From positions 1 through 64,000 of the forward strand of contig NZ_BAOS01000010.1 in NCBI RefSeq assembly GCF_002443295.1: 64,000 nt of DNA, given 5' to 3'. The translations under genes were made by a program, and so were the position numbers. The notes beneath the pieces were generated by a model. It saw nothing but the letters and a program-made list of their open reading frames with translations. It was not told the DNA's origin and ran no database searches. This document shows, piece by piece, positions 1 to 46,518 of this stretch. Within the stretch, counting starts at the first letter, position 1, and the number at the start of each line of letters is the position of its first letter. The stretch comes from Candidatus Scalindua japonica. Lineage in GTDB: Bacteria > Planctomycetota > Brocadiia > Brocadiales > Scalinduaceae.

Positions 1-811
1 TTTTAAGTGCGAGGCTTGGATTAGGTGCAGTCAATGAATTTGCCCTACCGCCATGGTTCTCAGCCGTACCTCTGATAACTCCGTATATATGATCGCCATC
101 ATCTATTGCCCTGCTTAACGGCTTTAGAAGGACCGCCCCTACTCCTTCTCCCCTCACATACCCATTAGCACCTTTACTGAAGGTCTTACACCTGCCATCA
201 GGTGACAACATCCCGGCCTTATCAAAAGATATAAATAAAGCAGGCGACAATAACGCATTCACCCCTCCTGCCAGCGCCATATCACAATCTCCCGCCTGTA
301 TCGATTGCACCGCTTTATGTATCGCTATCAGAGAACTGGAACACGCCGTGTCTATCGGCTCACTCGGCCCATGAATATTCAGTATATACGATATGCGGTT
401 CGCCAATACCGAATGGGCCAGACCCGTTGATGCATAAGCACCAATTTCTTTATTTCCACTCTCCTGTAAAATAGTTGCATAGTCAAACGATCCCACTCCT
501 ACATATAACCCGGTCTTCGTCCCCGACAGATCAGTTGCTTTATATCCCGCATCTTCTATCGTCTGCCAGACGGTTTCTAAAAACAACCTCTGCTGAGGGT
601 CCATCAGCGCCGCCTCCTTGGGTGAAATACTAAAAAACAGGGGATCAAATCTATCCACACCTTCAATAAAACCTCCCCACTTGATATTCGTCTTATTCAC
701 CTCATTCTGCGGATCTCCATAATAATCACGCCAGTCCCAACGGTCCTCCGGGACCTCACTGATCAGGTCTTTTCCTTCCTCCAGATTCCTCCAGAATACA
801 TCCAGATCATT
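1..811 (-). CDS. PKS4, third segment: ketosynthase (KS), truncated by window edge
   Basis: This is the N-terminal two-thirds of a trans-AT ketosynthase that elongates the chain by decarboxylative Claisen condensation. It contains the Cys active-site motif DTACSSSL. The window ends before the HGTGT and NIGH motifs. It belongs to the same gene as the two following segments. Four single-base insertions between about 812 and 869 throw it out of frame with the upstream DH-KR-ACP. From position 16 onward the DNA matches the PKS3 KS at 10,317-11,112. The first 15 bases differ from that copy, and the conserved run after APNP reads SLALK rather than the usual NAQA. The copy may therefore end here, or the left edge may be poor sequence. 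The KS identity is secure; intactness of the gene is not. Confidence 0.75.
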
Positions 812-3538
812 AACTCATCGGGCATCCCTGCCGCTCATCCCTATTACGGCTATCGGCACTGCTTCCTTTCTCTACTGCTCCCATAATCTTAAGAGACCGT
901 CCAATAAACCGGGACCGCATGGATTTCAGTTGTACACTTTCCTGTTCCGTTTCTGTAATTATGTCTCGCTCCACTACTGATGCTGCACCTAATTGATATT
1001 TGGCAATAAGAAGCTCTCCATATTCCTCAACCAGATAGTCAGCAAACGATCCCAACGTTGACTGCTCAAAGAATACCGTAGGCATAAGTTCAATACGATA
1101 CTCTTGATTCACCTTCGTAACAAATTCTGTTAAGGTGATAGAATCAAACCCATACTCACTCATCTCGGCATCAAAATCAATCTCCTCCTTCTTTACCTTT
1201 AATACATCAGATACCTCCTTAACAAGCTCCTGCCTCACCTTCTCAAGTAACTCATCTGTTTTATTTTGAGGAAGCGCAGATGCAAATGGCACCGGTTCCG
1301 TCGACGGAGAAGGCCCTTTTAATAACAGTTTAGATCGCATCTTACCAATTTCCCCCTCCGCAACCACCACATGACCATAGTCAAACTCCAGCACACGATC
1401 AAAGGCATCAACTCCCGCCTCTGTTCCCAACGGTACCATCCCACTTACTTGTTCCATCATCCGCACTGTCTGATCATCTACCCGCATACCACCATCTCGC
1501 CATAACGGCCAGCCGATGGACAACGTTCGACCATAACGCTTACCATCCTTAACCCGCCTCTGACGAGATACAGCAAAGGCGTCCAGAAAGGCATTCGCTC
1601 CCGCATAATCACACTGCCCTATACCACCTAAAACACCCGCAAGGGATGAAAAAAATATCATAAAATCCAGTCGCTCGTCCTTTGTCGCTATATCCAAATT
1701 GATAGCCCCACTCACTTTAGGCGATAAAACCGCTTTGATCTGATCATGCGTCTTCTTCAGGAAAAACGCATCACGGATAACACCAGCGCTATGAATGATA
1801 CCGTTTAACTTACCATACTCCTCTTTAATCGTCTTTAACGCTGCTTTTATCTGTGGCTCCTTACTAATATCCGCTTGTATATAGCTCACACTAATACCCT
1901 GCTGTTGTAACGCAGAAAGATACTTCTGCTTTTCTCCATCAAGCGCAGATCTACCGCTTACAACTAACTTCACCTCTTTTGTTTTACCTAAATGCAGTGC
2001 AAATATGCGCCCCAATCCACCTAATCCTCCCGTCAGCCAGTAAACACCACCTGGTTTGATTAATTGCACTGCTCCTGTATTCTGTACAGGTAATTTTACC
2101 TCAACCAGACGTTTAACTTGACGCACCTTGAGATCTTCACTATAACGCACTTCGATATCATGATCAGCAGAAAGGTTTGACTCTTGCTTGAGTATGGAGA
2201 GAAGATGCTGCTTATGGCGTATAGCTATTTCAGGATAATAGATAACCTTACCACGTGTCCGGGGACTCTCTAATTGTAACGTCTTTATCAGGCCCGCAAG
2301 GGGCGCATCGCAATAACCCTCTTCCGTGTCAGGCACCAGAATAAGTATCTGTTGTACACGATTTGGCGTAGCTCCTAAACAACTCTTGATCTTATCAAAA
2401 ACCTCAATAAATCTGGTCTCAACGACCTTGTAGATTGCTTTGCATCGAGGAGCGAGACTGATCACTTCAGCCTTCGGATACTCCAGTGCAATGGTTTCAA
2501 GAAGCGCCTCCTCCTGACTATCAACGATGACCAGACTCTCTACAACGCCAGTCCCCTGGGCCAAACCGCTTTGCAGGGACTGCTCATACCACTGAGTCGT
2601 GGTATAAAGAACTCCTCGCTCAGCCTGGGCCGTGGAGAGTTGGACCGAAGGCCTCGCATCCTGCAATACCCTGACCGTAAACTCCTTTAGCTTAACCACC
2701 ACCTGTCCCAGCTCATCCGTAATCTCAATATCATACTTCAGTACCTGACCCTGCGGGTCTACACCGGGACTATACCTCACATAGGCGTAAGCACTCTCAG
2801 GTATCGGACCATAAATCATCACCTCACTCAAAGCAAAGGGGAGTAGTGTCACTTGAGGCCCGGTCTTTGCATTGCCACCCACCAGCCCGGCTACCGCCTG
2901 CAAAGCACCATCCAGTAAACTAGGGTGTAAAACAAACCGCTCTGCCTGTCCTGTAACAATATCAGGCAACTTCAGCCTGGCTAACGCTTCACTATCATTG
3001 TAACTCAGACTTTCTATACCCTGAAATGAAGGACCATAGTTCAGACCACGACCGGCAAATGCCTTGTAACAGTCCACTCCTTGCTGCAGCTCACTGCACC
3101 TCGATTGAATACCTTCTATATCCAGAGATTTCGGTATGTTCTGCAGGCTACAATCTCCTACCTCAAGTTTCCCCTGACCGTGCACCATACGTTCATCACC
3201 TTCTACCGGACTGCTCACCTCAAAGGCTATATGATTCCCCTCAGGATACAAACTTATAGAGACTTCCCGGGCAACACTATTGACACGAACAGGACTGGAC
3301 CATACCATGTTCCTGATCCTTACAACATCACTCTTTGTCGCCAACTGACCCGCGGCACGAGCCATCTCTATATAAGCAACCCCAGGCAGCACCTTCTCAT
3401 CCTGGACCCTGTGATCTTTTAAGAAAAACTCTCCACCGGTCAGCCGTGTCGTAAACTGTTGCTCTGTTAAATCAGATGTGTTGCTCCCCAATAATGGATG
3501 CAATACGGACACACCGCCATTTCCCTCAGCAATAACTT
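16..3538. repeat. Copy A of a 3.5-kb near-identical direct repeat
   Basis: This block matches 10,317-13,834 with no substitution noticed in the stretches I compared. It carries four extra single bases (about 812, 820-822, 826-828 and 867-869), each lengthening an existing run. It lacks the one-base deletion that copy B has at about 12,628. It covers DH, KR, ACP and the start of a KS. Past 3,538 the copies differ by 8 versus 12 bases, share another 44 bases to 3,589, then diverge fully inside the conserved post-KS linker. Confidence 0.93.
810..3512 (-). CDS. PKS4, second segment: DH-KR-ACP
   Basis: This open segment carries a dehydratase (about residues 1-280; His in DHRVQDEKVLP, Asp in HPSLLDGALQ), a ketoreductase (about 330-730; GGLGGLG cofactor loop, Ser in FFSSLAG, Tyr in CDYAGANAF) and an acyl carrier domain (about 770-850; phosphopantetheine Ser in GFDSI). 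It would dehydrate and reduce the beta-keto group made by the upstream KS. The apparent start is an internal GTG, so this is not an independent gene. It lies downstream of a 4-base net shift at about 3,539-3,546 that separates it from the KS at 3,467-5,662. Its 3' end runs into four single-base insertions at 812-869. The protein is identical, residue for residue, to the matching part of PKS3. The Gly of the DH HxxxGxxxxP motif is Asp. Confidence 0.8.
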   Translation of the reverse strand: MSVLHPLLGSNTSDLTEQQFTTRLTGGEFFLKDHRVQDEKVLPGVAYIEMARAAGQLATKSDVVRIRNMVWSSPVRVNSVAREVSISLYPEGNHIAFEVSSPVEGDERMVHGQGKLEVGDCSLQNIPKSLDIEGIQSRCSELQQGVDCYKAFAGRGLNYGPSFQGIESLSYNDSEALARLKLPDIVTGQAERFVLHPSLLDGALQAVAGLVGGNAKTGPQVTLLPFALSEVMIYGPIPESAYAYVRYSPGVDPQGQVLKYDIEITDELGQVVVKLKEFTVRVLQDARPSVQLSTAQAERGVLYTTTQWYEQSLQSGLAQGTGVVESLVIVDSQEEALLETIALEYPKAEVISLAPRCKAIYKVVETRFIEVFDKIKSCLGATPNRVQQILILVPDTEEGYCDAPLAGLIKTLQLESPRTRGKVIYYPEIAIRHKQHLLSILKQESNLSADHDIEVRYSEDLKVRQVKRLVEVKLPVQNTGAVQLIKPGGVYWLTGGLGGLGRIFALHLGKTKEVKLVVSGRSALDGEKQKYLSALQQQGISVSYIQADISKEPQIKAALKTIKEEYGKLNGIIHSAGVIRDAFFLKKTHDQIKAVLSPKVSGAINLDIATKDERLDFMIFFSSLAGVLGGIGQCDYAGANAFLDAFAVSRQRRVKDGKRYGRTLSIGWPLWRDGGMRVDDQTVRMMEQVSGMVPLGTEAGVDAFDRVLEFDYGHVVVAEGEIGKMRSKLLLKGPSPSTEPVPFASALPQNKTDELLEKVRQELVKEVSDVLKVKKEEIDFDAEMSEYGFDSITLTEFVTKVNQEYRIELMPTVFFEQSTLGSFADYLVEEYGELLIAKYQLGAASVVERDIITETEQESVQLKSMRSRFIGRSLKIMGAVEKGSSADSRNRDERQGCPMS

Positions 3539-5662
3539 AGGCCTCTCAGGCACCCAATACCTCTCCCTGGCAAATGGATAGGTGGGCAGTGGTATACGTA
3601 AGTGTATACCTTCTTTAAACAACGGTTCCCATGCCAATTCATAGCCTTGAGCATATAAATCAGCTAATGCAAGAAGATTATCCTGGTAGCTTTGATAGTC
3701 TTCTTCATTTGAAACAGATAATGTCTCTATTAATTGATTGCCATATTTCTTTAAAGCAATTTGCTTACGATCTTGTCTTACTATACTATTTCTTAGTACA
3801 TTCTTTGCACTCTTTTGTTCAATCGCCCCCCGTAATGTCTCTTTAAGATGGATCAGATCTTTTACAACTATAGCACAACGGTGATTAAAGTGACTACGAC
3901 CTGACAGCAAAGTATAGCTCATGTTGGCAAGCAATGATTTTTCTGATACTGATGACACTACTCTCGATATCCTTTGAAGATACCCTTGCAAGTCCTTTAG
4001 TCTTTGATCTAAGGCTTTCATGGTTTTAGCCGATAGACAAATCAGATAAGAGGGTTTTTTGAACTCAGGATATTGTGCCACTCTCTGAGGGGCTTCTTCT
4101 ATCACCATATGAGCATTGGTACCACTTATACCGAATGAATTTACTGCGGCCATTCTGAGGCTACTGTCATCCGTTGTCCAGTCTTTTAGTTTGGTGTTCA
4201 CATAAAAAGGGCTATTTTCGAAATCTATGTTTTCATTAGATTGCTGATAATGCAAAGAAGGAACAAGCTTTTTATTTTTGAGACATAAAACCGCCTTAAT
4301 CACACCAGCTACACCAGCAGCCCAGCCAGTATGACCAATATTGGTTTTAACGGACCCAATAGCACAAAACTGTTTATCAGGTGTATATTCGAAAAAAGAA
4401 TCTGTTAAAGCTTCCACTTCAATAGGGTCACCTAATGGAGTTGCTGTTCCGTGTGCTTCAACATAGCTTATTGTTCTCGGGTTTATCTTGAATTTTGCAT
4501 AAACACCCGTCTGTAAGCCTAATTGAGACAGACGGTTAGGGGCTGTTATTCCATTTGTTTTACCATCTTGATTTATTCCAGACCCTTTTATAACTGCATA
4601 AATATTGTCATTATCACGTACAGCATCATTGTATCTTTTCAATAAAACCACACCGCATCCTTCTCCAGACACAATACCTGATGCAGATTTATCAAAAGTC
4701 TTACAACGTCCTTCCGGTGATGGCATGCCCACCTGGCTAGTCATAATATGAAGTAAAGGCGTCAGCATCAATGTAACACCTCCGGCAAGCGCCAAGTCGC
4801 TTTCTCCAGTATTGAGGCTTTGACAAGCTTGATGAATTGCTACAAGTGATGAAGAACACGCGGTTTCTATAGTAACGGCAGGACCTGTAAGATTTAAAAA
4901 ATACGAAATTCTGGCTGCTAAAATTGCAGAAGATGTCCCCATTAATGCTTGACCACTAGTAGAAAGAGCAGCTTCTGATAATCTTTTTACATAATCACCA
5001 CCAATAGCACCTACAAAAACACCACATTTTTTTTCATTTAATACCTCTAATGAATATCCGGCATCTTCAAATGTCTTCCATGCTTCTTCTAAAAATATTC
5101 TTTGTTGTGGTTCTATAAATTCAGCTTCAGCAGGTGAAATATTAAAAAACAAAGGATCAAATTTATCAACATTATCTAGAAATCCACCCCACTTTGTATA
5201 TGATGTATTTAAACTGTTTTTATCAGGGTTAAACCAATCTTTTTCACTCCAACGCCCTTCAGGAATTTCAGTAATACTATCTACCCCATCTTTGAGATTA
5301 TACCAGAATTCATCAGCATTACTTGCCCCTGGAAATCTGCATGATAAGCCAATAATAGCAAAACCTTGCTCATCACTCTTTGAAGTAACTGGCCCCTTAC
5401 TATTTTTCTCAATACTATTATCCTCATTTTTCGAAACAAGATTTGATTTTAACTTTATATCTATTTGGTCCTCTATTTGTTTAATGTGCATGCTCTCTTC
5501 ACTTCTTCCGGCTGTTTTATATTCGGGTAGTGATGAATAACCAGGCTGAGAAGGAGAAGAACCTTGTTCATTTTTCTTTTTTAAATTCAAAAGGGCCTGT
5601 TTAGCTTCTATAATAGAAAGTCTGCCGCTTTTTAGTTTTTTTAATATTTCCTCTTTCCTCAT
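3467..5662 (-). CDS. PKS4, first segment: N-terminal docking helix + KS
   Basis: This is the true 5' end of PKS4. It has an ATG start with AGAGGT eight bases upstream. Residues 1-30 form a helical docking element (LKKLKSGRLS...QALL pattern) that mirrors the C-terminus of PKS3, so it probably receives the chain from PKS3. The KS spans about residues 98-530: Cys in ETACSSSL, His in HGTAT (the family norm is HGTGT) and His in NIGHTG. A post-KS linker ends in PTYPFARERYWVPE, after which the frame is lost. The last roughly 27 residues are out-of-frame translation of DNA that encodes the next DH in PKS3. The gene follows ECH2 by 76 bases and belongs to the same operon. With its frame restored the gene would continue past position 1. 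Confidence 0.85.
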   Translation of the reverse strand: MRKEEILKKLKSGRLSIIEAKQALLNLKKKNEQGSSPSQPGYSSLPEYKTAGRSEESMHIKQIEDQIDIKLKSNLVSKNEDNSIEKNSKGPVTSKSDEQGFAIIGLSCRFPGASNADEFWYNLKDGVDSITEIPEGRWSEKDWFNPDKNSLNTSYTKWGGFLDNVDKFDPLFFNISPAEAEFIEPQQRIFLEEAWKTFEDAGYSLEVLNEKKCGVFVGAIGGDYVKRLSEAALSTSGQALMGTSSAILAARISYFLNLTGPAVTIETACSSSLVAIHQACQSLNTGESDLALAGGVTLMLTPLLHIMTSQVGMPSPEGRCKTFDKSASGIVSGEGCGVVLLKRYNDAVRDNDNIYAVIKGSGINQDGKTNGITAPNRLSQLGLQTGVYAKFKINPRTISYVEAHGTATPLGDPIEVEALTDSFFEYTPDKQFCAIGSVKTNIGHTGWAAGVAGVIKAVLCLKNKKLVPSLHYQQSNENIDFENSPFYVNTKLKDWTTDDSSLRMAAVNSFGISGTNAHMVIEEAPQRVAQYPEFKKPSYLICLSAKTMKALDQRLKDLQGYLQRISRVVSSVSEKSLLANMSYTLLSGRSHFNHRCAIVVKDLIHLKETLRGAIEQKSAKNVLRNSIVRQDRKQIALKKYGNQLIETLSVSNEEDYQSYQDNLLALADLYAQGYELAWEPLFKEGIHLRIPLPTYPFARERYWVPERPKLLLREMAVCPYCIHYWGATHLI

Positions 5663-5701
5663 CTATTTACCTCTTATTAACCAGCACCCCAGTGTAAGAT
5701 T

Positions 5702-5723
5702 CTACTTTTTTTTAAAAAAGTAG
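5702..5723. other. Perfect AT-rich hairpin between ECH2 and PKS4
   Basis: Ten-base arms (CTACTTTTTT and AAAAAAGTAG) flank a two-base loop in the 76-base gap between two co-directional genes. There is no clear GC-rich stem and no U-run on the minus strand. It is more likely a processing or weak attenuation site than a full terminator. Confidence 0.35.
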
Positions 5724-5738
5724 TTTACCATTTATTCA

Positions 5739-6503
5739 TTAACCAAAAAGCTCCTCAATACGGCTTTTCACTTCTGGTTGATGAAATGTTAATTCATGCA
5801 TTTTCAGTTCTTCTCTTATGGTCTCTGGCAATCGAGCGCGAAGATGCTGAGTCAAATGTTTTTTCATAGCGATTAGCGATGTCCTGGGTTTATCAGCCAA
5901 CTCTTTAGACATCTGCATTGCAATTGTAAAAACCTCTTTTCGCGGCACGACTTTGAATGGGATGCCTCTTTGCTCCAATTCACCGCCCTGATAATTTTTC
6001 GCAGATAACATCATCTCATGTGCTAAAGAAGTCCCCAGCCGTTCTGGAAGTATCAACGTGGCCCCCAATCCTGGAGTAAAACCATATTTCATAAAATTTG
6101 CTGAATACACACTCTCTCTACCCATTACGATGATATCCGCATACATGCCAAACACCAGCCCTCCACCAATTCCATGCCCCTGCATAGCTGAAACAACAGG
6201 GACATCACAATCCAGGGCCAAATGAAAAAAATCCAAGTCATTAAAGTTCAATTCTCCAGTATAAATCTTTAATAACTCCTCTTTTGTACCTCCTGAGCAA
6301 AAATAATTATCATACCCTGTTAATAATACAACTTTGATATTAGAGTTATCCCGAACACGTGAAAAACAGCTTATTAAGCCTTTTATAAGATTCTCTGAGA
6401 ACATATTACGATGTTCTTTGTCCAACATTTCAATGATGACAATACCGTCTTCTACCTCTCTATATCTTACTACTTTATGTGCTAAGATGATTTGCTCTCC
6501 CAC
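5739..6503 (-). CDS. ECH2-type enoyl-CoA hydratase-fold decarboxylase of the beta-branching cassette
   Basis: This is a crotonase-fold protein of 254 aa and the last of three consecutive beta-branching genes. By analogy with PksI/CurF-type ECH2 enzymes it would decarboxylate the glutaconyl-ACP intermediate, leaving a carbon branch at the former beta-carbonyl. Visible features are the oxyanion-hole Gly-rich stretch GHGIGGGLVFG and the ECH2-like FMKYGFTPGLGAT. The GTG start at 6,503 lies inside the upstream gene (22-base overlap), which suggests translational coupling. The gene order HMGS-ECH1-ECH2 is the classical one. The family is clear; the ECH2 rather than ECH1 role rests on position and the YGFTPG motif. 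Confidence 0.85.
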   Translation of the reverse strand: MGEQIILAHKVVRYREVEDGIVIIEMLDKEHRNMFSENLIKGLISCFSRVRDNSNIKVVLLTGYDNYFCSGGTKEELLKIYTGELNFNDLDFFHLALDCDVPVVSAMQGHGIGGGLVFGMYADIIVMGRESVYSANFMKYGFTPGLGATLILPERLGTSLAHEMMLSAKNYQGGELEQRGIPFKVVPRKEVFTIAMQMSKELADKPRTSLIAMKKHLTQHLRARLPETIREELKMHELTFHQPEVKSRIEELFG

Positions 6504-7267
6504 GGAAAAATTCCATCCTGGACAAATGCTCTAATATTAGCCCTAACCTGTGGGTCAGTTAATAATTCCGTAATCTGTCCAACAGCTAAATTTTGTGTCT
6601 TTGCCTCAATGATCCACAATTGACTAACGTATCTTTTCAATGTCTTGACACTCTGTGACTCTAAACGAGACAAACGGATAATATATTTACGAAGTTGACT
6701 TTCAAGGTTTTCGTGAATATCATCCACAAGTCCTATCTCATAGGCCCTTGATGCCGAAATGGACTGCGTTGTCAACGCCATACGATATGCCGCTTGAAAC
6801 CCAACACGTCGAATCAAAAAAGGTAAAACACATGCAGGAACGAGTCCAAATAAAAGTTCTGACAGGCCAAATTCTGCAGTTGGATCCGCAATTACCAGGT
6901 CACTTGCAGCAACCAGACCTATACCACCTGCACTTACTTTTCCCCGGACCATCGAGATAATCACTTTTTCACTACGGCTGAAACATTTGAGTATCTCATA
7001 ATACAAATTGGTATTTTGTGCTGTTAAATCCTCACCTGGATTCTCATCAGATTTAGTAATTGTTTCAAAATCCATTCCAGTACAAAAAACATCTGGTAAT
7101 CCTTCAATCAAGACAATCTTTATTTCGTTATTCTGATCAACAATCTGTAATACCTGATAAAGTTCCTCAATAAGTATCGCATTAAGACTATTTTGCACCT
7201 CAGGACGGTAAAGCTGGACCCTCAATAGCAGCCTTTGCTCTTTAAGTTTCAAGGTTTGATAAGACAT
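6482..7267 (-). CDS. ECH1-type enoyl-CoA hydratase-fold dehydratase of the beta-branching cassette
   Basis: This 261-aa crotonase-fold protein resembles PksH/CurE. It is expected to dehydrate the HMG-ACP adduct made by the preceding HMG-synthase homologue. The oxyanion-hole region is RGKVSAGGIGL, followed by FGLSELLFGLVPA, which is typical of the PksH branch. The ATG start is preceded by AGGTGA. The gene begins 10 bases after the HMGS gene and overlaps the ECH2 gene, so the three are probably made together. The family assignment is firm; the division of labour between ECH1 and ECH2 follows from known cassettes. Confidence 0.87.
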   Translation of the reverse strand: MSYQTLKLKEQRLLLRVQLYRPEVQNSLNAILIEELYQVLQIVDQNNEIKIVLIEGLPDVFCTGMDFETITKSDENPGEDLTAQNTNLYYEILKCFSRSEKVIISMVRGKVSAGGIGLVAASDLVIADPTAEFGLSELLFGLVPACVLPFLIRRVGFQAAYRMALTTQSISASRAYEIGLVDDIHENLESQLRKYIIRLSRLESQSVKTLKRYVSQLWIIEAKTQNLAVGQITELLTDPQVRANIRAFVQDGIFPWESKSS

Positions 7268-7277
7268 TTTTTGTCAC

Positions 7278-8519
7278 CTACATCCATTCATACTTACGAT
7301 GAAAATTCTTAATTTCTGAAAGCACCAACCGACCTCTGCCCAGGAAGTGATCGTCCACACCTGGTAACAAACCTTTTTGTATAACCACATCTTTAATCCC
7401 AAATCTGACTACCTTATTGTAATCAAACATGGCTTCATACTCTTCCATGCTCAATTCATAGCGTTCACTCAGGGTTTTCCCGATTTGACGATGCGCCTGT
7501 ATCTGCTTCGCAGAAGATGTTACAACACCACTGTAAAATTCTGAACAACACCCTGATCCATATGAAAAAACACCTACTCGTTTTGGTGTAGGAAAGTCGC
7601 CATTATCAATCAGCCCGGCCAGGGCCAGAAAAACCGTCCCGCTCATCACATTACCAACTCGCTGACAATAACTCAGAGACGGCTGTACCCGTACCTGAAA
7701 ATCCTGTTCAATCTCTGATGGAGTTGCCTTTTTAAATTTTCGCATCATGGTGCGATGTGTGCCTTTGACCATACCACCAAAGGGAGTATGAAAGGCCAGA
7801 TAATCAAAAGTATCTTGATAATCAACCCCTTCTACTCTGTCCTGATACATCAGAAAGGCATTTTCGCAACAATCCAAATAAGAGAGCAAAGATAAATCCG
7901 CATCACCGAATTCATGGTCAGGAGTAGGACGACAAGTATCCATCACCTCATATCCGTAATATCCAGTGGCACCTATGTCTAAACTGAATACTTTAGGTTG
8001 ATCACTCACTAAGTATGCAATTGCACCCGCCCCACCGCTTGGTTCATGATAAAGCCCCCTCATCTCTGGAAACATACGCGAGATGTCAGTAGAGACTACC
8101 AAGGCTTTCGCACCAGGGGACGTCTGTGATAACACAAAACCAACAGCCATTTGAAAAGCAGCTGTACCTGCATAACATGCCTGTTTAATTTCAAACAAAC
8201 GGCAGTGACGAGATAATTTTAAATAATGATGTACATATGTACTCAATGATTTGCCAAAATCTACGGCTGATTCTGTAGACACAATCACTAATTCAATGCG
8301 GCTGCGTTCCTCTTCGCTTAACTCGTCAATAATGGGCTTGGCCGCATTTATTCCAAAAGAAACAGAATCTTCATAATAAAGTGCAACTGTTTTTTGCAGC
8401 ATTAATAGATTTTCAAAACGGACCATATCTAAATTGCGCTCTTTAGCTAACGTTGCAACATCTAAAAAAGCTTCTCCTCCATAAACATTTAATGCCTCTA
8501 TACCTACTTCAGTCATCAT
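7278..8519 (-). CDS. HMG-CoA synthase-like enzyme of the polyketide beta-branching (HCS) cassette
   Basis: This 413-aa HMG-CoA synthase homologue (PksG/CurD type) adds an acetyl-ACP carbanion to a beta-ketoacyl-ACP on the assembly line. The nucleophilic Cys sits in the ACYAGTAAFQ motif at about residue 114, with a Glu in ETV-like contexts less clear by eye. The HTPFGG stretch holds a catalytic His. The start codon overlaps the PKS3 stop region (8,509-8,519), indicating coupling. The upstream PKS3 ends in a KS-ACP module with no ketoreductase, which would present exactly the beta-keto substrate this enzyme needs. The donor ACP and decarboxylating KS that such cassettes normally use were not found in the window. 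Confidence 0.92.
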   Translation of the reverse strand: MMTEVGIEALNVYGGEAFLDVATLAKERNLDMVRFENLLMLQKTVALYYEDSVSFGINAAKPIIDELSEEERSRIELVIVSTESAVDFGKSLSTYVHHYLKLSRHCRLFEIKQACYAGTAAFQMAVGFVLSQTSPGAKALVVSTDISRMFPEMRGLYHEPSGGAGAIAYLVSDQPKVFSLDIGATGYYGYEVMDTCRPTPDHEFGDADLSLLSYLDCCENAFLMYQDRVEGVDYQDTFDYLAFHTPFGGMVKGTHRTMMRKFKKATPSEIEQDFQVRVQPSLSYCQRVGNVMSGTVFLALAGLIDNGDFPTPKRVGVFSYGSGCCSEFYSGVVTSSAKQIQAHRQIGKTLSERYELSMEEYEAMFDYNKVVRFGIKDVVIQKGLLPGVDDHFLGRGRLVLSEIKNFHRKYEWM

Positions 8520-37219: not shown

Positions 37220-40200
37220 TTACAGTCCTTTATTTCGTTGCTTTCTTGCCAATTTACGAGCCTCACCTCGGCTCAAACCTTGTTGAGAAGAATATTCATC
37301 ACTTTGTTCCTGGCCTAAAAATTTGGCAAAAGAGCTAATAGTCGGGTATTCAAACATTGGAAGCATTGGTATATCGCGCTTAAGCAGTTTTTGCAATTTG
37401 TTATTAATCTGGACTATGTGTATTGAATTACCACCTAGATCAAACAATTTGTCATTGATACCTATCTCTTCTCTACCTAGTACTTCCTTCCAGATTGTCG
37501 CTATGTTTCGTTCTAATTCGGTTTGGGGTATTACTTTATCAGTTATTTCCAACTCAGAGTCAAGATTCCCCTCCAGACCCGACAGGGCCTTGCGATCAAC
37601 CTTGCCGTTAGGAGTCAGAGGCATGGAGTCAATCACAACAAAAGATGATGGTATCATGTATTCTGGTAGTTTCTCTGCCAGGTATCTCTGTAATTCAACA
37701 ACAATATCATCGTCGGGTTTCGATTCTTGAACGGATTGAACAAAAGAAGGTGATTTACTCATTTCCTGAACTAATGACTGGTCTTTAATTTGTTGATCAA
37801 CCCGCCCACCAACTAAACTGTGAAGGTAAACATGGCTTTCCTCAAGGTCAAATAAATGTCTTATTTGTTGAAAATCAAAACCTCCAATCTGGCACAGTCC
37901 GATCTGATTATCAACCGCTGTAGTTTCTAAAAGCTGGCTCATTATTCCTGCTTCCAGCATACAAAAATCTCTTGCTAATACTCCATACATGGGATAGACA
38001 GCGTTAAGCTGTCCAATGAAAAAGACCGCAAAAGCTGACTCATCAAATATAGTGTTGTTTCCTGTAGTATATACGCCTGCATCAATATTTGGATTAGCTG
38101 ATATCAACATAAGACGATGATCAATAGGGTGATGATAGTACGTTCCTCCGGTGAGTCCATCCACCCTGCCTGGCTTAATATATATATATGTTTGCACCGG
38201 GTAGAGTCCTCCAGCAGAACCGTATCGATACTTTGGAAATGTCGATTCACCAACTCTAATCTGAAGGAGACAACTTAAAAACTCACTGAAATGTTCTAAG
38301 GTAATGGGCTCTTGTAGAAATCTTCGAAAGCTGCGACGTTCAGTAAAGACTTTTTTCAAGTTTTCATTGAGCATTGGTTTGATTAGTTGTGTATAAGGCT
38401 TATCACCTTCTTTATTGTGTATCCCCATTTCTTTTAGCTTAAATTGCAGGCGTTCCATTGGGTCAAATAACTGTACCTGTTCTATCCGGTGCACTTCGAA
38501 GTCCCCGGTCTTGTCATCCTTAGCGTTTGCATGCTTATTTACTGTTGGTATCTGTCCATTGTTGAGGACAACGTAGGCTACCAGGCGCTTGTTACCTGAC
38601 AACTCACCTAATGCTGTAACTACTACTGAACTAACAGCCGGATGCCGTGACAAAACAACCTCTATCTCCTCCAACTCTATTCGATAACCCTGTACCTTAA
38701 CCTGAAAGTCCTCTCTTCCAAGAAACTCTATGTTTCCATCAGGAAGATATCGACCCAGATCTCCTGTATAATACAAACGTTCTCCCGTCTTCGGATGCGT
38801 CATGAAACTCTTATCTGTTTTCTCCTCATCTCGCCAATACCCTTTTGCCAAGCCAATACCTCCAATATATAACTGACCTGGGACCCACATCGGACACGGC
38901 TCCAGCATTTCACTTAAAACATGAAAACATTGGTTCTTCATTGGTCGACCATACGGAATGCTTTTCCACTCAGGAGCAACCTCTTCTATAGGGAATAAAA
39001 TCGACCAGATTGATGCTTCAGTAGCGCCACCGAGGCTAATTAATTTTACACCTTTGATCAAATTTCTTATTGAAGCAGGCAAGGTCACTGGAATCCAATC
39101 CCCACTCATTAATACCAACTGAATTGAGGAAAGACCGGCAGTTGATTGTTGACCAGACACATGTTCCACAAACATCTGCATCAAAGCCGGTACAGAGTTC
39201 CATATACTTACCTTTTCTCGCGTAACCAACTCAAGCCAGTGAGATGGCTCCAACTTTTTTGATGCATCAGGCATGACAATCGTACCGCCTACCGACAGTA
39301 AGCCAAAAATATCGTAGACAGATAGATCAAAATTTAATTCTGAAATAGCAAAAACGCTATCCTCATGTCCCACATTAAATCGCTGATTGATATCAATAAT
39401 CGTATTAACTGCTCCTCTATGATCAATCATTACTCCCTTCGGCTGTCCTGTCGATCCAGAGGTGAAAATTACATAGGCCAAATCCTCTTCATTCTGTACA
39501 GGCTCTAGATCCCCTTTAGTAAATCCTTCTATATTCTCTTTGTCTAAGCTAAATCGCTTTACATTATCTGGCCACTCCAATGTCACATCCAACCTTGAAT
39601 GAGTTAAAACAAACCGAATTTCAGCTATTTCTAAAAGATACCAGAGTCGTTCCCTGGGAACACCAGGATCAATGGGAAGATATGCAGCCCCTGATTTTAG
39701 AATGCCAAGCACAGCAACAACCTGCTCCCAACCTTTTTCCATAACCACTGCAACCAGAGTATTTGGTTTAGCATCCATCTCTCTAAGCTTATATCCAATC
39801 TTATTTGAGCGTTGATGTAATTCCTGATACGTTAACGTCTTACTTGAAGTTACCACTGAACTTTGGTTGGGGCGTAATAACACCTGTTTTTCAAACATAG
39901 TATGAAGCAATTCATTTGAAATCGGTGCTTCAGTGGTATTGACGGAAACACGCTGCTGAAGCTGATCAGGTGGCACTAATTCAGAAGTTACTTCCTGCCA
40001 TGCCTTCTCATCATCTGCTAAGCATTGTAAGAAACGGCAATAGGCGCTGAACATATCATCTATAAGTCCATCAGGAAATAGATCATCCACCACATCCCAG
40101 TTAAAGACCAAGGCATCAGTTTCCTCATACACCAGATGATCGAACCAAACCTGAGGTGTCTGGCTTATGCCATAAACCATATCAACTACTCCAGTCAACG

Positions 40201-43200
40201 CAAAGTTATCCTGGCCAGACACACCAAGTCCAAGACCACTTGTAAATACAACAGGTATTGTCGACATCGAAGCATCTCCACTGGCTTGAACAAGTTCCCT
40301 CTGGACTTGCACGCCACTAACATAGCTATAATCCAGATTCTTCCAAAGCTGATTCTGATGACAGCGGGCCCGGACTTCAAAAGTGTCTTTTACCGAATTA
40401 TCTATTGCAAGTATAGTTGTTGAAGTAAAGTCTCCTACGACGTAATTTACTTGAGAATGCAGGGGATGACGATTGAAGAGTGTCAAATTAATGGAAAATT
40501 CAGAACTTTTGCTCCAAGTGGTAAGGACCTCTGCAAAGGCAGCCAATAATATCCCTGAGGGGGTAATCCCCGCTCGTGATGCTTTATTTTTTAATCGAAC
40601 CCAAGTTCCCTGCTCTAATCCACCACTCCTTCGGATAAATCGGGGAGATGTTATGGAATCAGGATTTGACACTAGTGGTAACTCAGGCGCAGGAGGCAAC
40701 TCCAACAAACGGCCCCGCCAATAATCCAGAGACTGCTGATATAGTCCAGAGTCTTTAAAAGCAACCATGGCGAATACATAGTCCCTGAATGAGATATTAA
40801 GAGGAGGAAGAGAAACTTCAGGATTATTATAAAGTAAGGAAAATTCATAAATGAGTATTTGGATACTCCGAATGTCACCGATCATGAGATCATAGCTTAT
40901 GTGAAACCTGGTACGCTGGTCGTTTAACAGAGAAGCTCGAATCTCAAACAGAGGGCATTTGTTAACTGGAAGTAATTGATGGGACATATTTTGTCTAATA
41001 TCTTCCAGACGAGATGCTATTGCCTTAGAATCTTGCCCACGTAAATCTAAAACATCAATTTGGTAAGAGGGTAATTGTTTTATTATCTGCTGTTGACCAT
41101 CTGCCAGAATGACAGCACGCAACATGTCATGACGTTCTATTAACTTTTGTAAGGCATGATTGACCCGCCCCAGATCCACTCCCTCTTTTTCAACCTCAAC
41201 GTAGTGATGACATGCCACTTTACCCAACCCGAAAGTACCGCTTCGACCAATCAAATAAGCCTGCTGCATATCAGTGAGTGGGAAAGGTAAGTAACGCTGG
41301 TCTTGAGAAGGTACTATCTTGGGCAATGAAACATGAGGGTGATTAAAAGAAGAAAAGGAATCAGGCAACTGATCAAGTACCTTTTTTGCAAGATGGGCAA
41401 CACTAATATTCTGTAGAAAGTCAATCAAGGGAATGTCCACTCCCAGACTGGTACTCAAAACATTCTTCAACTCGATGGCCTTCAGAGAATCGAGTCCCAG
41501 TTCCATCATGGATTGTTGTGAATCAAACAACTGAGATGAATCAAGCACCATAACTTTGACAACCAGGTCTCTAATGTAAGCTATTATGAGGTCATATCGT
41601 TCGCCTGGAGACGCATTTTCAAAATTATTAAATAATTTTGATGCTGATGCCTTACCAAATTGACGTAAGAAATTAATAGGCAACCCCAACAACATTTTCG
41701 CAGTATAATATTCGATTGGTATTAGATGATGTCTATGTAATAAGTTTTCTTCATTTACTATATTTAAGCTCCAATTATTTCTTTTACAAAATTTGTTATT
41801 TTTACTTTTATGTAAAGTTAACTGATCTACCTGATAAGTTTCTCCAATATCATCCTGGTTTTTTAATTCTCTAGTTCTAAAGTTAGAATCATAATAGCAC
41901 TCTATAAAATCGATCGAATCCGGAATATTATTTATTGGTAAGCTATATTTAATATAATCGTAATCACCTTTAACTTTCTCACATTTTTCTCTTTCAATAA
42001 AATCTAAGAATGGTTTATTTTTGTCCGTTGGATAGAATTTTGCTTCTATTGAAGTCAAATTCTGCTTTTTACAATATTTCTTGAGCCTTAACATTATTGC
42101 ATCTTCTATCCTTCTTCCCAAGACCCTACAGCTTAATAAAAATGTATCGAGAAATAATTTATCTTTCTCCTCTTTAATAATAACGACACCAACCAATCCA
42201 TAATCTCCAAATCGGTCAGTCACTTCAATTACCCAGCATTTAATATTTGGCATATTAATCAAAGACTCTATTTCTTCTTCTGTTCTACGAATAGTACTCA
42301 AGTTAAATTGGTTCGTCCTCTGGGTTAATTGAGAAACTCTAGCTATTTGCATTTTCTCAACCAGATTCATACTCATTTTCAATTCTAACCCTTTGAGAAA
42401 ATCAGGTAACGAGGATACGCCCTCCTGCGCCTTCCGTCTTTTACTTTCAGCAATATACTTTGATGTGCGTTTTTTATCTTCCCGGGTAACTTTAAATCTA
42501 TCAAATGCCCAGGCAAGTTTTAGATAAGCAGGAATCTGATCAGCATCTTCTGGTAATTGAAGTGTTAAAACTTCAGGACAGTTGGTCATTACCTCTGTAC
42601 ATTCCAAAGGATTATCATCTATAAATATAAAGCTGTCCTTTCCTAAATTTAACTCGCTTTCTAACTCTTTTATATTCTCTGATTTCGCTTGCCAATTGAT
42701 TCGCCAATTGACAAAATGTTCTTTCTTTAATATCATCTGCGGATTGTTTTCAAACACATCCCACACATCTGTTTCATTGTTTTTACTGCACAAAACCAAT
42801 AAGAACCCTTCGTTGTATTTTTGAAGTATAAACTTTTGTAATTCTAAATGAAAATTATCTATGATAACACCTAAAGCCCCATCTTCCCCACAAACACCTT
42901 TCCATAACGTATTATCACAATCAAGTGTTATAACTTTAAATTGTTGCGTTCTAAATGAATATATTTTTCGGGCAATTATTGTTCCCATTGCTGCGTAATA
43001 TTCATCACTAAAGGGGAGATGACCAGTTTCGTCTTTCTGTATATCAAAAATGTTTTTGATGTTATAAAGCCGATCCAATTCCGTAAAATCTATTATATGT
43101 ATATCCTCTATCTCTTTTAAAATTTTTTTCCAGCGAATGTTCATATGCCCTAAATAACTCATCATTGTATCGCTTAATGATAAATGTGTGGAAACTGGAA

Positions 43201-43630
43201 ATACTGCAACAAAATAGGAAGCTGATTTTTTTTTATTTTTTAGTGTTTCAGTAAGTTCCAAAAAGTTTCTCTCTATTTTTTTACACCTTTCTGCATCTGG
43301 GGTTTGATCATTGCGAATCCAATCCTCAAAGCGAATTAATAATAAAACAACCCCATCAGTAGTTGATATTAAACTTGATGGGTCAAGCAATTCCTGAAAA
43401 ACCTGATTATATGGTGCAAATTGAATAGCTATATCCACATCAAACTGTTTACACCACCACCTTATATAGTCTTCAACTGGTTCAGAAGTAAATGTAGCGC
43501 TTACCGTTAATTGAACAGATTCTTTTACAGATACTCCTTCATCTTGCTCCAGCAAAACACTTCTTTCCCTTTTCCCTTCATTAAAATCAAAACGAGAAAC
43601 TGCTTGTGTGTTATTTTCTCTATTCTTCAT
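37220..43630 (-). CDS. Starter NRPS: FkbH-ACP-Cy-A(Cys)-Ox-PCP
   Basis: The protein is about 2,136 aa from the ATG at 43,630 (weak GAAGTG upstream); an in-frame TTG at 43,654 is the alternative. Residues 45-560 are an FkbH-like unit: HAD motif DCDNTLW at about 237 and a GNAT-like C-terminal part, which in this family loads a glyceryl unit from 1,3-bisphosphoglycerate onto an ACP. ACP: GLDSL, about 715. Heterocyclization domain: about 780-1,210, with DLMIGD (DxxxxD) and VGDFTS. Adenylation domain: from about 1,245, with TSGSTGQPKG. Its eight pocket residues plus the next and final Lys read DLYNLSLIWK, the textbook cysteine code. An FMN oxidase domain (about 1,750-1,950) is inserted before the last A-domain motif (NGKVDRKAL). 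PCP: GGNSI, about 2,069. Predicted product: a 2-substituted thiazole passed to PKS1. Confidence 0.93.
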   Translation of the reverse strand: MKNRENNTQAVSRFDFNEGKRERSVLLEQDEGVSVKESVQLTVSATFTSEPVEDYIRWWCKQFDVDIAIQFAPYNQVFQELLDPSSLISTTDGVVLLLIRFEDWIRNDQTPDAERCKKIERNFLELTETLKNKKKSASYFVAVFPVSTHLSLSDTMMSYLGHMNIRWKKILKEIEDIHIIDFTELDRLYNIKNIFDIQKDETGHLPFSDEYYAAMGTIIARKIYSFRTQQFKVITLDCDNTLWKGVCGEDGALGVIIDNFHLELQKFILQKYNEGFLLVLCSKNNETDVWDVFENNPQMILKKEHFVNWRINWQAKSENIKELESELNLGKDSFIFIDDNPLECTEVMTNCPEVLTLQLPEDADQIPAYLKLAWAFDRFKVTREDKKRTSKYIAESKRRKAQEGVSSLPDFLKGLELKMSMNLVEKMQIARVSQLTQRTNQFNLSTIRRTEEEIESLINMPNIKCWVIEVTDRFGDYGLVGVVIIKEEKDKLFLDTFLLSCRVLGRRIEDAIMLRLKKYCKKQNLTSIEAKFYPTDKNKPFLDFIEREKCEKVKGDYDYIKYSLPINNIPDSIDFIECYYDSNFRTRELKNQDDIGETYQVDQLTLHKSKNNKFCKRNNWSLNIVNEENLLHRHHLIPIEYYTAKMLLGLPINFLRQFGKASASKLFNNFENASPGERYDLIIAYIRDLVVKVMVLDSSQLFDSQQSMMELGLDSLKAIELKNVLSTSLGVDIPLIDFLQNISVAHLAKKVLDQLPDSFSSFNHPHVSLPKIVPSQDQRYLPFPLTDMQQAYLIGRSGTFGLGKVACHHYVEVEKEGVDLGRVNHALQKLIERHDMLRAVILADGQQQIIKQLPSYQIDVLDLRGQDSKAIASRLEDIRQNMSHQLLPVNKCPLFEIRASLLNDQRTRFHISYDLMIGDIRSIQILIYEFSLLYNNPEVSLPPLNISFRDYVFAMVAFKDSGLYQQSLDYWRGRLLELPPAPELPLVSNPDSITSPRFIRRSGGLEQGTWVRLKNKASRAGITPSGILLAAFAEVLTTWSKSSEFSINLTLFNRHPLHSQVNYVVGDFTSTTILAIDNSVKDTFEVRARCHQNQLWKNLDYSYVSGVQVQRELVQASGDASMSTIPVVFTSGLGLGVSGQDNFALTGVVDMVYGISQTPQVWFDHLVYEETDALVFNWDVVDDLFPDGLIDDMFSAYCRFLQCLADDEKAWQEVTSELVPPDQLQQRVSVNTTEAPISNELLHTMFEKQVLLRPNQSSVVTSSKTLTYQELHQRSNKIGYKLREMDAKPNTLVAVVMEKGWEQVVAVLGILKSGAAYLPIDPGVPRERLWYLLEIAEIRFVLTHSRLDVTLEWPDNVKRFSLDKENIEGFTKGDLEPVQNEEDLAYVIFTSGSTGQPKGVMIDHRGAVNTIIDINQRFNVGHEDSVFAISELNFDLSVYDIFGLLSVGGTIVMPDASKKLEPSHWLELVTREKVSIWNSVPALMQMFVEHVSGQQSTAGLSSIQLVLMSGDWIPVTLPASIRNLIKGVKLISLGGATEASIWSILFPIEEVAPEWKSIPYGRPMKNQCFHVLSEMLEPCPMWVPGQLYIGGIGLAKGYWRDEEKTDKSFMTHPKTGERLYYTGDLGRYLPDGNIEFLGREDFQVKVQGYRIELEEIEVVLSRHPAVSSVVVTALGELSGNKRLVAYVVLNNGQIPTVNKHANAKDDKTGDFEVHRIEQVQLFDPMERLQFKLKEMGIHNKEGDKPYTQLIKPMLNENLKKVFTERRSFRRFLQEPITLEHFSEFLSCLLQIRVGESTFPKYRYGSAGGLYPVQTYIYIKPGRVDGLTGGTYYHHPIDHRLMLISANPNIDAGVYTTGNNTIFDESAFAVFFIGQLNAVYPMYGVLARDFCMLEAGIMSQLLETTAVDNQIGLCQIGGFDFQQIRHLFDLEESHVYLHSLVGGRVDQQIKDQSLVQEMSKSPSFVQSVQESKPDDDIVVELQRYLAEKLPEYMIPSSFVVIDSMPLTPNGKVDRKALSGLEGNLDSELEITDKVIPQTELERNIATIWKEVLGREEIGINDKLFDLGGNSIHIVQINNKLQKLLKRDIPMLPMFEYPTISSFAKFLGQEQSDEYSSQQGLSRGEARKLARKQRNKGL

Positions 43631-43739
43631 ATTCACTTCTTTTTTATTTTCCAAACAAATTTTTCAATTCTTTCAGGTATTAACATTAAAGTTTTCAAAG
43701 CAGCGTCAGCGGCCATCTTTATCTCTTCCTCTACTCATA

Positions 43740-45296
43740 TTATAAATAATTTTCTTTATTTTTTTCTTCATGATTTAACTTATTTCTGTAGACTACAGGA
43801 TCAATTCCTTTAGGCAAAGAATAAACATAATAATGATAGTTTATTCCTAATAATACGGCAAGAACATCAGTGCTTCTTTTATATGCAATCAACATTATTT
43901 TCAAAATAAATTTTATTTGAGAGAGATCTTTGGTCCATAAATATTTAGTAATGTATAGAAAGCTCAAGATCCTTAGATAAAATGGAATTTTTCCAGCATA
44001 CTTTTTAAAATGGCCCGTATTCCATAGGGCAGTTAGTCTTTTATAAATGGCAGGATACGCATGAATTTGTTGAAGCACCCAATAATAGGCATTTTGCAAT
44101 TCTTCTGGTGTCATATTTTGAGGTTTAAAGACTACCCTTTGAAAGTTGTAATTGTTCCAATCTCTATCCAGAATTCTTCCTTCTTTTTCCATTCTCTTAT
44201 AAAGTATAGTTCCAGGAAACGGAGTTAGAATTGATAACGTTGTTGCGAAAAAATTATTTTTATTTATAAAATCAACCAATTTTTTAAAATCCTCAACATC
44301 GTCTGCATCATTTCCCAAGATAAAAGAGGGTAAAATGTAAATTCCATGAGAATGAATTTTATCAATAGATTTTTTGTATTCGCTAATCTTATTTACCTTT
44401 TTATTCATTATTTTTAAATTCTCTGATTTTAAGGATTCAAACCCAATTAAGATTGCGTAGCATCCGCAACGATCCATTAAATTTAATAATTCATTATCAT
44501 TAGCAATATTTAATTGAGCCTGGCTCCACCACATAATTTTTAAATTGACCAGTGCACTAAATAATTCTTTTGCATACCTGTTATTTGCACAAATATTATC
44601 GTCTGAAAAGAAAATTCCTTTTTCTATTTTGAGGAAAAAATATTTCCCGAGTAGAAACCATTTAGGAAATCTTTTTATTTCTTCAATCACTTTGGAAACA
44701 GGTTTATGTTGCATTCCCTTTCCAAAAAAAGTATGTACCAGACAAAATTCACAATTATTGGGACAACCACGAGTAGTGTTAACACTATTCATTAAATATC
44801 TTCCAGAATGCAAAAGATCATGCCTGGGTATGTCTTGTTCATCTAATTTAGTTTTATTTGTGGATTGATATATATTCTTTAGTCTGTTATTTTTGAAGTC
44901 TTCTATAAATTCAGGCCAAACATTTTCTGCTTCACCGATAATTATACTATCTGCATGTTCAAGGGCCTCATCAGCCAGCATTGTAGGATGAATGCCACCC
45001 AAAACTACTTTTACTCCTTTTTGTCTAAATTTATCTGCAATTTCATAAGCACGCTTAGCTGTATATGTTAAAGTGGTTATTCCCACTAAATCAACCTGTT
45101 TATCAAAGTTGATTGGAAGGATATTTTCATCGATAATGGTGACTTCAATATCTGAAGGAGTTAAAGCCGCAATAGTTGGTAACGCTATGGGGTACACCAT
45201 AAATATTTCATTTCCCACAAGCTTACCCAATTCCTCAAAATTCCTCAAAACCCAGGCACATGTTTCAGCTGCAGGAGATATTAATTCAATTTTCAT
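43740..45296 (-). CDS. B12-binding radical SAM protein
   Basis: This 518-aa protein has an N-terminal cobalamin-binding-like region (about 1-130, including VGITTLTYTAKRA and LGGIHPTM) and a radical SAM core with CPNNCEFC (CxxxCxxC) at about 183-190. The C-terminal part contains ILTPFPGT and a region rich in Tyr and Trp. Such proteins perform methylations, ring formations and rearrangements on unactivated carbons. It lies between the acyltransferase-like gene and the NRPS on the same strand, so it may act on the polyketide or thiazole, for example as a C-methyltransferase. That is inference from position only. The C-terminus resembles the partial protein at the right edge of the window. ATG start with only a weak AAGAG upstream. 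Confidence 0.85.
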   Translation of the reverse strand: MKIELISPAAETCAWVLRNFEELGKLVGNEIFMVYPIALPTIAALTPSDIEVTIIDENILPINFDKQVDLVGITTLTYTAKRAYEIADKFRQKGVKVVLGGIHPTMLADEALEHADSIIIGEAENVWPEFIEDFKNNRLKNIYQSTNKTKLDEQDIPRHDLLHSGRYLMNSVNTTRGCPNNCEFCLVHTFFGKGMQHKPVSKVIEEIKRFPKWFLLGKYFFLKIEKGIFFSDDNICANNRYAKELFSALVNLKIMWWSQAQLNIANDNELLNLMDRCGCYAILIGFESLKSENLKIMNKKVNKISEYKKSIDKIHSHGIYILPSFILGNDADDVEDFKKLVDFINKNNFFATTLSILTPFPGTILYKRMEKEGRILDRDWNNYNFQRVVFKPQNMTPEELQNAYYWVLQQIHAYPAIYKRLTALWNTGHFKKYAGKIPFYLRILSFLYITKYLWTKDLSQIKFILKIMLIAYKRSTDVLAVLLGINYHYYVYSLPKGIDPVVYRNKLNHEEKNKENYL

Positions 45297-45536
45297 TTTT
45301 TTACTCTTTTCATTGGTCTATATAAAACTTACTAAACAATGCTCTTCAGGTTTAAAATTTCGTTAATTCTTTTGTATTTAAAAACACATAACTGTTTTCT
45401 TGAAAACATTAAATTGTTTAAAACACAAGAGGATCTTTTTTAAAGTCTCAAGTTATTAATTATCATAGCCTGTAAGATCAATATATTATGGCTGTTTTAT
45501 ACCTGGTTTTCCAAGACAAATATATCTCTTTTAAAT

Positions 45537-45554
45537 AACATCCTTATCGATGTT
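45537..45554 (-). terminator. Small hairpin just after the acyltransferase-like gene
   Basis: AACATC and GATGTT arms enclose a six-base loop right after the stop codon of the gene ending at 45,556, followed on the minus strand by ATTT. It is too short and AT-rich to be a strong terminator. The 260-base gap to the radical SAM gene otherwise shows no convincing promoter by eye. Confidence 0.25.
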
Positions 45555-45555
45555 G

Positions 45556-46518
45556 TTATTGATTTAGGACACTTTGTAATCGTTTTATATTATTTAAGTC
45601 TCTTCCAAACATATCAATTGTTGTTAGAGATTTTGATCCAGATTCATTTTTGATTATTTGTTTAACAAAATTCGCTAACGTTCCAGACGGTCCAATATCA
45701 ATATATGTAAAGTCTCCATTTCGTTCCCAAGATTCAATTGTTGCCAGGAAGTTGATTGGCTGTCTTGTAATTTGATAATAGTAATCAACGTGAATGTCGT
45801 CATGCTTCAGCAATCTCTGATATAAAGGAGAAATAATCGGGATGGTTATTTCCAGAAAAGAAAGGCATTTTAAAAACTGCTTAAATTCATTTTCAATTGG
45901 GTCCATTCGATACGAATGAAATCCGTGACTAACGGGAAGTATTTGAGCTGAAATGTCAATTTCATCAAGAAATGACTTTATTTTTTCCAGCTTTCCATGG
46001 TCACTGGTTATTACAAAATGATTGTCGTAGTTTATGCCAGCAATCGTAGTATCAGAGAACCGTTCTGTATTTTGCTTAAAGAACTTATAGTTAGTAAGAA
46101 TAGCCATCATACTCGCATTGGGAGTTAAATTTATAGTTAGCTCCGCATTCTTATGAACTAAAGCTATCGCATCTTCAAGGCTCAACACCCCAGCAACCAC
46201 ACTCGCCACATATTCACCCAGGCTATAACCTAATAGGTAACCAGGTTTTATCCCAAGGCTTAAAATGGTTTGATACAAGCTGTATTCAAAAATGAATATT
46301 GCCGGATGGGTATAAATTGTTTTATCAAACGGTTCAAACCTATCAGGTCTCTCCATGTAAATTATCTCTACCAGAGAGGCATGAATTAAAGGTTCATAAA
46401 TTTTACTACAATAATTCATCCAGTAATGAAAATTTTCGTTTTTTTCATAAAGTTCTTTCCCCATCTGATAATACTGAGAACCTTGACCAGAAAACATAAA
46501 GACTATAGGTTTATTCAT
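45556..46518 (-). CDS. Discrete acyltransferase-fold protein (acyl hydrolase or atypical trans-AT)
   Basis: This 320-aa FabD-fold protein has the nucleophile Ser in GYSLGEY (about residue 97) and the catalytic His in HGFHS (about 201). It is the only AT-fold protein in a window full of AT-less modules, so a role with this cluster is likely. In FabD and malonyl-specific trans-ATs an Arg about 25 residues after the nucleophile (VEMRG context) binds the malonate carboxylate. Here the aligned segment reads VHKNA, with Asn in that place. Loss of this Arg is typical of the acyl-hydrolase (PedC-like, proofreading) subgroup, or of ATs using non-carboxylated acyl groups. A normal malonyl-loading AT may therefore be encoded elsewhere. 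ATG start, no clear Shine-Dalgarno. Confidence 0.85.
   Translation of the reverse strand: MNKPIVFMFSGQGSQYYQMGKELYEKNENFHYWMNYCSKIYEPLIHASLVEIIYMERPDRFEPFDKTIYTHPAIFIFEYSLYQTILSLGIKPGYLLGYSLGEYVASVVAGVLSLEDAIALVHKNAELTINLTPNASMMAILTNYKFFKQNTERFSDTTIAGINYDNHFVITSDHGKLEKIKSFLDEIDISAQILPVSHGFHSYRMDPIENEFKQFLKCLSFLEITIPIISPLYQRLLKHDDIHVDYYYQITRQPINFLATIESWERNGDFTYIDIGPSGTLANFVKQIIKNESGSKSLTTIDMFGRDLNNIKRLQSVLNQ

Follow-up and report, generated by a model that had tools for sequence, protein, structure and literature searches.

It is for their ladderane lipids that anammox bacteria are known, and not as makers of complex polyketides. What, then, is the large PKS/NRPS locus that opens a contig of Candidatus Scalindua japonica, where does its assembly line end, and what kind of product could it release? 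The window, i.e., the whole 64,000-nucleotide stretch analysed here, spans bases 1-64000 of C10, a contig of 214,433 bp; the assembly comprises 47 contigs and totals 4,812,853 bp. The 16S gene of this assembly, read for probe sites, contains GGATTAGGCATGCAAGTC, TTCGCAATGCCCGAAAGG and GGGCACTAAGTAGAGGGAATTA, which we take to be the targets of the Planctomycetes probe PLA46, of Amx368 and of the Scalindua probe BS-820, respectively. The window holds the greater part of a trans-AT PKS/NRPS cluster from an anammox bacterium, a Candidatus Scalindua.

A sequence-only reading of this DNA had described a trans-AT PKS/NRPS cluster with a thiazole starter and no integrated AT, and every domain test made agrees with it. 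PF00698 is absent from all of the PKS proteins, discrete ATs are encoded at 45556-46518 and C7:57864-58730, and a RhiE-type KS-linker (PF22336) follows nearly all KS domains, as expected of trans-AT systems. The locus is very probably a trans-AT PKS/NRPS cluster, large but of a familiar type, located in an unexpected organism.

Starter protein

The FkbH/Cy/A/Ox starter proposed earlier was recovered in a single protein, in the order FkbH-ACP-Cy-A-Ox-PCP:

37220..43654, minus strand: starter protein FkbH-ACP-Cy-A(Cys)-Ox-PCP (profile searches, BmdB alignment)
41990..42940, minus strand: FkbH domain, predicted glyceryl loading (TIGR01686, residues 239-555; DxDxTLW motif read)
40277..41278, minus strand: heterocyclisation (Cy) domain (PF00668, residues 792-1126; DLMIGD, i.e., DxxxxD, instead of HHxxxDG)
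38528..39895, minus strand: adenylation (A) domain, predicted cysteine (PF00501; pocket D-L-Y-N-L-S-L-I-W read against BmdB)
37820..38341, minus strand: oxidase (Ox) domain, nested ahead of the NGKVDR end of the A domain (PF00881, residues 1772-1945)

The FkbH domain exceeds the NCBIfam cut-off by a wide margin (295.6 bits against 146.65), and its HAD motif and adjoining ACP are those expected for glyceryl loading. A Cy domain with DxxxxD, an A domain for cysteine and an Ox domain likewise make up a cysteine thiazole module. The best solved relative of the protein is the bacillamide synthetase BmdB (E 2.8e-223), with the Cy-A part aligned over 900 residues. Since the pocket motifs FDLSVYD, IWN, LVLxSGDW and LGGATEASIW are common to both proteins, the A-domain pocket is read as a cysteine code, and a thiazole starter is very likely. 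BmdB (Cy-A-Ox-PCP) has the identical domain order, the cysteine pocket and an Ox nested in the A domain, but the Scalindua module is fused behind FkbH-ACP and feeds a trans-AT PKS.

The starter protein has no full-length relative among 17 genomes of the family, 392 genomes of the phylum and 72,556 plasmid records; a peptide-pattern scan covering 84,980 species also found none, returning only four NRPS matches (27-28%), all from actinobacteria. Matches on cyanobacterial plasmids (Brasilonema, Chroococcidiopsis) have the Cy-A-Ox region in common but were rejected as belonging to other pathways; the genes around the Chroococcidiopsis match look like methoxymalonyl supply and salicylate.

PKS proteins and beta-branch cassette

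Downstream of the starter, the following PKS proteins and beta-branch genes are encoded:

25995..37199, minus strand: PKS B, KS-DH-KR-ACP-KS-DH-KR-MT-ACP-ER, ER truncated (domain profiles; CurK ER alignment)
17582..25975, minus strand: PKS C, FMN_red-KS-DH-KR-ACP-KS-DH with C-terminal docking helix (domain profiles)
12585..17564, minus strand: PKS D, KR-ACP-KS-DH, true gene start with docking helix and frameshift-made end (domain profiles)
8509..12678, minus strand: PKS E, KR-ACP-KS-ACP, the KS-ACP module being a candidate beta-branch site (domain profiles; one ACP without Trp flag)
7278..8519, minus strand: HMG-CoA synthase (HMGS) homologue (PF08540, PF01154; TIGR01835 247 bits, under the cut-off of 360)
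6482..7267, minus strand: ECH1, dehydration (NF005498, 308 bits against a cut-off of 250)
5739..6503, minus strand: ECH2, decarboxylation (NF005496, 362 bits against a cut-off of 215)
3467..5662, minus strand: PKS F, docking helix-KS, frameshift-made end (domain profiles)
810..3512, minus strand: PKS G1, DH-KR-ACP (domain profiles)
1..814, minus strand: PKS G2, KS cut by the contig end, second half at the right end of C9 (KS profile 52-280)

All eight KS domains counted earlier are present, two each in B and C and one each in D, E and F, with a partial one in G2. The C-methyltransferase was also found, in PKS B, as was the fused flavoprotein, a PF03358 (FMN_red) domain that opens PKS C and contains a Cys-rich CVGCFSCF...C motif.

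The predicted HMGS-ECH1-ECH2 cassette holds as well, ECH1 and ECH2 by scores above the NCBIfam cut-offs and HMGS by Pfam. The candidate acceptor ACP, in the KS-ACP module of PKS E, reads DSIIGVELVKQ and lacks the Trp flag. Neither a donor ACP nor a decarboxylating KS for beta-branching was detected in the window or in the parts of the line on C7 and C9; a stand-alone ACP is present in a second cluster on contig C1.

The missing end of the assembly line

The window starts at position 1 of C10, and the downstream end, correctly expected to the left of that position, was located on contigs C9, C8 and C7, giving a line of about 87 kb from C7:56368 to C10:50463. The KS cut in the window continues at the right end of C9 (24,087 bp), its profile positions 52-280 lying on C10 and 285-368 on C9. 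Both contig ends can be aligned to a homologous KS (C10:19134-20803), according to which they abut within about 2 bp. Similarly, the KS in which C8 (5,093 bp) breaks off is continued at the right end of C7, within about 3 bp. The order of C9 and C8 rests on collapsed repeats: C9:3-1502 is 98.5% identical to C8:2054-3544, and C8 itself begins and ends with stretches of 98.9% identity to each other (1-566 and 4522-5091). Identities of this kind indicate that a tandem module repeat has been collapsed, and therefore at least one module of the C8 type, perhaps more, is present.

The combined line on C10, C9, C8 and C7 contains at least 15 KS domains. With slashes marking breaks, it reads: starter; KS-DH-KR-ACP and KS-DH-KR-MT-ACP-ER fragment (B); KS-DH-KR-ACP, KS-DH/KR-ACP, KS-DH-KR-ACP and KS-ACP (C, D and E); KS-DH-KR-ACP twice and KS-KR-ACP (F, G and H); KS/DH-ACP, KS/DH-KR-ACP and KS-DH-KR-MT-ACP (H, I and J); KS-DH-KR-ACP at least two times (J and C8); and a last module, KS-KR-ACP-ST-C, on C7. 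The terminal PKS is followed by genes for a DUF6208 protein, a second AT and a PfaD-type enoyl reductase (TIGR02814, 662 bits against a cut-off of 449), which could act in place of the truncated ER of module 2. Two C-methyltransferases and two discrete ATs are thus encoded along the full line.

A sulfotransferase-condensation ending

The ST domain matches the CurM ST at E 2.5e-77 and another PKS ST structure (4gox) at E 4.4e-71, with protein-tyrosine sulfotransferases scoring far lower. In CurM, the KR forms a beta-hydroxyl that the ST sulfates, and the TE hydrolyses and decarboxylates to yield a terminal alkene; haliamide provides a further ST-TE precedent (PMC6274090). As in CurM (KR-ACP-ST-TE), haliamide and the cyanobacterial olefin synthase, the Scalindua line has an ST of the same family right behind the last ACP and after a KR, here with intact motifs; it differs from them in relying on a trans-AT instead of a built-in AT and in ending with a condensation-family domain (PF00668) in place of the TE. 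No TE was found among the C7 neighbours scanned. By our own reading of its sequence, the terminal domain appears closest to epimerase-like C domains. An NRPS epimerase was nevertheless rejected, the catalytic Glu of EGHGRE being replaced by Arg (HRLHRR) in each of the four ST-C homologues, all of which keep HHxxxDG.

These homologues are the present one, a second one in the same genome (C1:106094-113029, 53% identical) and two (46-47%) from the planctomycete G087, which belongs to another family. The trans-AT lines of G087 (C65:113532-129152 and C95:11586-32339) have ST-C ends 42-47% identical to both Scalindua ones, and their last modules show no KR by profile, as also reported for haliamide. 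The 16 other genomes of the Scalindua family gave no full-length ST-C match. A more distant ST-C pair (29-30%) occurs within NRPS-like proteins (ACP-ST-C-A-ACP) of a planctomycete of the same order (G364:C47). A DUF6208 gene follows an ST-containing PKS twice, at C7:58882-59832 and at 9853-10836 of a Calothrix brevissima plasmid locus; DUF6208 proteins may be partners of sulfotransferase-terminated PKSs. In a separate setting, an Agrobacterium vitis plasmid locus (10042-13689) encodes a short NRPS A-PCP-ST protein beside cysD/cysN (sulfate activation) and an ectB-like transaminase; sulfation of a PCP-bound amino acid is a possible role.

Sulfation at release is fairly probable, and each single release product, taken by itself, falls short of an even chance. 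Chances appear evenly balanced that ST-C is a new chain-release device, in which the beta-hydroxyl is activated by a CurM-type ST and the chain is off-loaded by a C-family domain instead of a TE; the device would then be common to no fewer than four trans-AT lines of planctomycetes, including two from a single anammox bacterium. No such ending appeared in the literature searched on ST combined with C domains. Within the same general scheme, the C domain might act as a hydrolase and yield a terminal alkene like the ST-TE of CurM. This variant is somewhat less probable: the CurM family membership of the ST, the haliamide precedent and the DUF6208 gene behind both the C7 and Calothrix PKSs speak for it, but a TE is lacking, the E-like fold with HHxxxDG is better known for acyl transfer, and two of the homologues, those of G087, have no detectable KR in the last module.

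Tailoring, export and cluster limits

The right side of the cluster encodes tailoring, acyl supply and export functions:

43740..45296, minus strand: B12-binding radical SAM protein, probable anaerobic tailoring, methylase or oxygenase-like (PF04055, PF02310, PF13282; no NCBIfam equivalog cut-off reached)
45556..46518, minus strand: discrete trans-acyltransferase (PF00698, E 1.3e-34; FabD-like, under the FabD equivalog cut-off)
47120..49468, minus strand: predicted MMPL/RND exporter (PF03176; 1098-bit homologue adjoining the C1 cluster)
49675..50463, minus strand: LolA-like periplasmic lipoprotein carrier, probable export partner at the cluster edge (PF17131, E 1.1e-51; weak homologous fragment beside the C1 MMPL gene)

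The second trans-AT cluster of this genome (C1:61186-113029) comprises an HMGS, the stand-alone ACP and the ST-C terminus, followed by three B12 radical SAM genes, and includes an ORF break within a KS near 106.1 kb. The best homologue of the B12 radical SAM protein (497 bits) lies beside it. Since the MMPL, B12 radical SAM and, weakly, LolA-like genes are common to the C1 cluster, they are likely members of the window cluster. The boundary earlier drawn at 46518 was not borne out; given the homologues of the MMPL and LolA-like genes beside the second cluster, the right edge is placed near 50.5 kb. Another radical SAM gene, at 63685-64000 of the window and on to C10:64692, is related to that of the cluster (207 bits) and lies within a stretch collinear with congeners. 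Many KS-linker domains occur in just one further congener, G007, which carries a large multi-KS cluster (C16:33887-116696) with open frames of up to 7,218 aa and no ST-C.

Integrity, origin and novelty

A module-sized direct repeat complicates the left part of the window:

16..3589: module-sized direct repeat, copy 1 (99.69% over 3578 bp against copy 2)
10317..13889: module-sized direct repeat, copy 2 (99.69% over 3578 bp against copy 1)

Over 2.67 kb of this 3.6-kb repeat (868-3538 against 11165-13834), the sole difference is one 1-nt indel. One of the two copies may have arisen as an artefact of assembly at a contig end. The indel splits ORF D from E near 12.6 kb, and similar differences split F from G1 near 3.5 kb and G1 from G2 near 0.81 kb. 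We treat these three splits as frameshifts in duplicated DNA (errors or fresh mutations), not as natural module splits, while the boundary between C and D, with a docking helix on each side, is a true gene boundary. The ER of PKS B lacks its C-terminal part, aligning to residues 52-272 of the 358-residue CurK ER chain, and the catalytic His is missing from two DHs, in modules 8 and 11, so that those chain positions may stay hydroxylated. Together, the three frameshifts, the truncated ER and the two His-less DHs suggest sequencing errors or decay, and the exact number of modules and integrity of the line are uncertain owing to the frameshifts and near-identical duplicated modules. Were all these lesions real, and the ORF break in the C1 cluster is a further one, the cluster would be decaying and without product. 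We consider this unlikely, since the frameshifts are located in near-identical repeats and the indel at 12628 has no counterpart in the other copy (2332), which points to an error of assembly or sequencing; moreover, the KS, KR and ACP active sites are intact wherever covered and the docking helices pair at true gene ends. Contamination or a chimeric contig might be suspected from the several contigs that terminate within KS repeats and from a G+C content that in some PKS parts exceeds that of the surroundings. However, C10:64001-80000, right beside the window, matches 12 of 12 congeners (77-92% identity at the best places), and collinearity with two congeners resumes on the same contig at C10:55043. 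On these grounds contamination was rejected as highly improbable. Collinearity ends at 55043 on the PKS side, and the PKS is therefore an accessory block missing from that site in these two relatives.

A functional, native cluster could still make a compound already known from another organism, such as a patellazole-like or leinamycin-like thiazole polyketide, with the host alone being new. Each element type is indeed established. Leinamycin-type trans-AT thiazole polyketides have a thiazole at the start and a beta-branch, but an amino-acid starter instead of FkbH and another release. They also have a DUF-SH sulfur-insertion domain; no such domain was among those that a general Pfam scan reported in the proteins scanned. 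The FkbH-started trans-AT PKSs of bryostatin and oocydin share the FkbH-ACP loading and have no thiazole module. The patellazole pathway of Ca. Endolissoclinum faulkneri is, by description, a trans-AT PKS of similar size (86 kb) whose product contains one cysteine-derived thiazole (PMC4552006). Against a known compound stand the starter protein, lacking a full-length homologue in the genomes and plasmids searched, and the ST-C ending, absent from the literature searched; we regard it as quite unlikely. Literature searches on trans-AT PKS with anammox, and on FkbH with thiazole and ST, found nothing of the kind. The product, left unassigned by the sequence-only reading, stays so, and a new compound is plausible.

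Proposed biosynthesis and significance

We propose that FkbH would load a glyceryl unit, which Cy would join to cysteine, closing a thiazoline that Ox would convert to a 2-(dihydroxyethyl)thiazole-4-carboxyl unit. About fifteen malonyl extensions, mostly with DH-KR, would then build long polyene stretches bearing two alpha-methyls and, from the KS-ACP module, a single beta-branch. A beta-hydroxyl left by the final KR would be sulfated from PAPS by the CurM-type ST, after which the condensation-family domain would off-load the chain in one of two ways: hydrolysis, with sulfate lost in a decarboxylation as in CurM, or transfer to a small amine or alcohol. Oxygen-independent tailoring of the product may be carried out by the B12 radical SAM enzyme, and its export by the MMPL and LolA-like proteins. 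Overall, a trans-AT line running from C10 through C9 and C8 to C7, with a thiazole-capped polyene and ST-C release, is likely, because of the domains, the Cys pocket and BmdB layout, the FkbH, PfaD, ECH1 and ECH2 scores above cut-off, the match of the ST to CurM, the conserved HHxxxDG, the contig junctions, the C1 cluster and the native flank.

According to a 2022 review, the planctomycete metabolites identified so far are relatively simple only (PMC8868522). The ST-C ending would extend known polyketide release chemistry, and the near-identical modules offer a view of a very recent module duplication. As the owner of two giant trans-AT lines, a slow-growing marine anammox organism would become a new compound source and would also hint at chemical competition within anammox communities.
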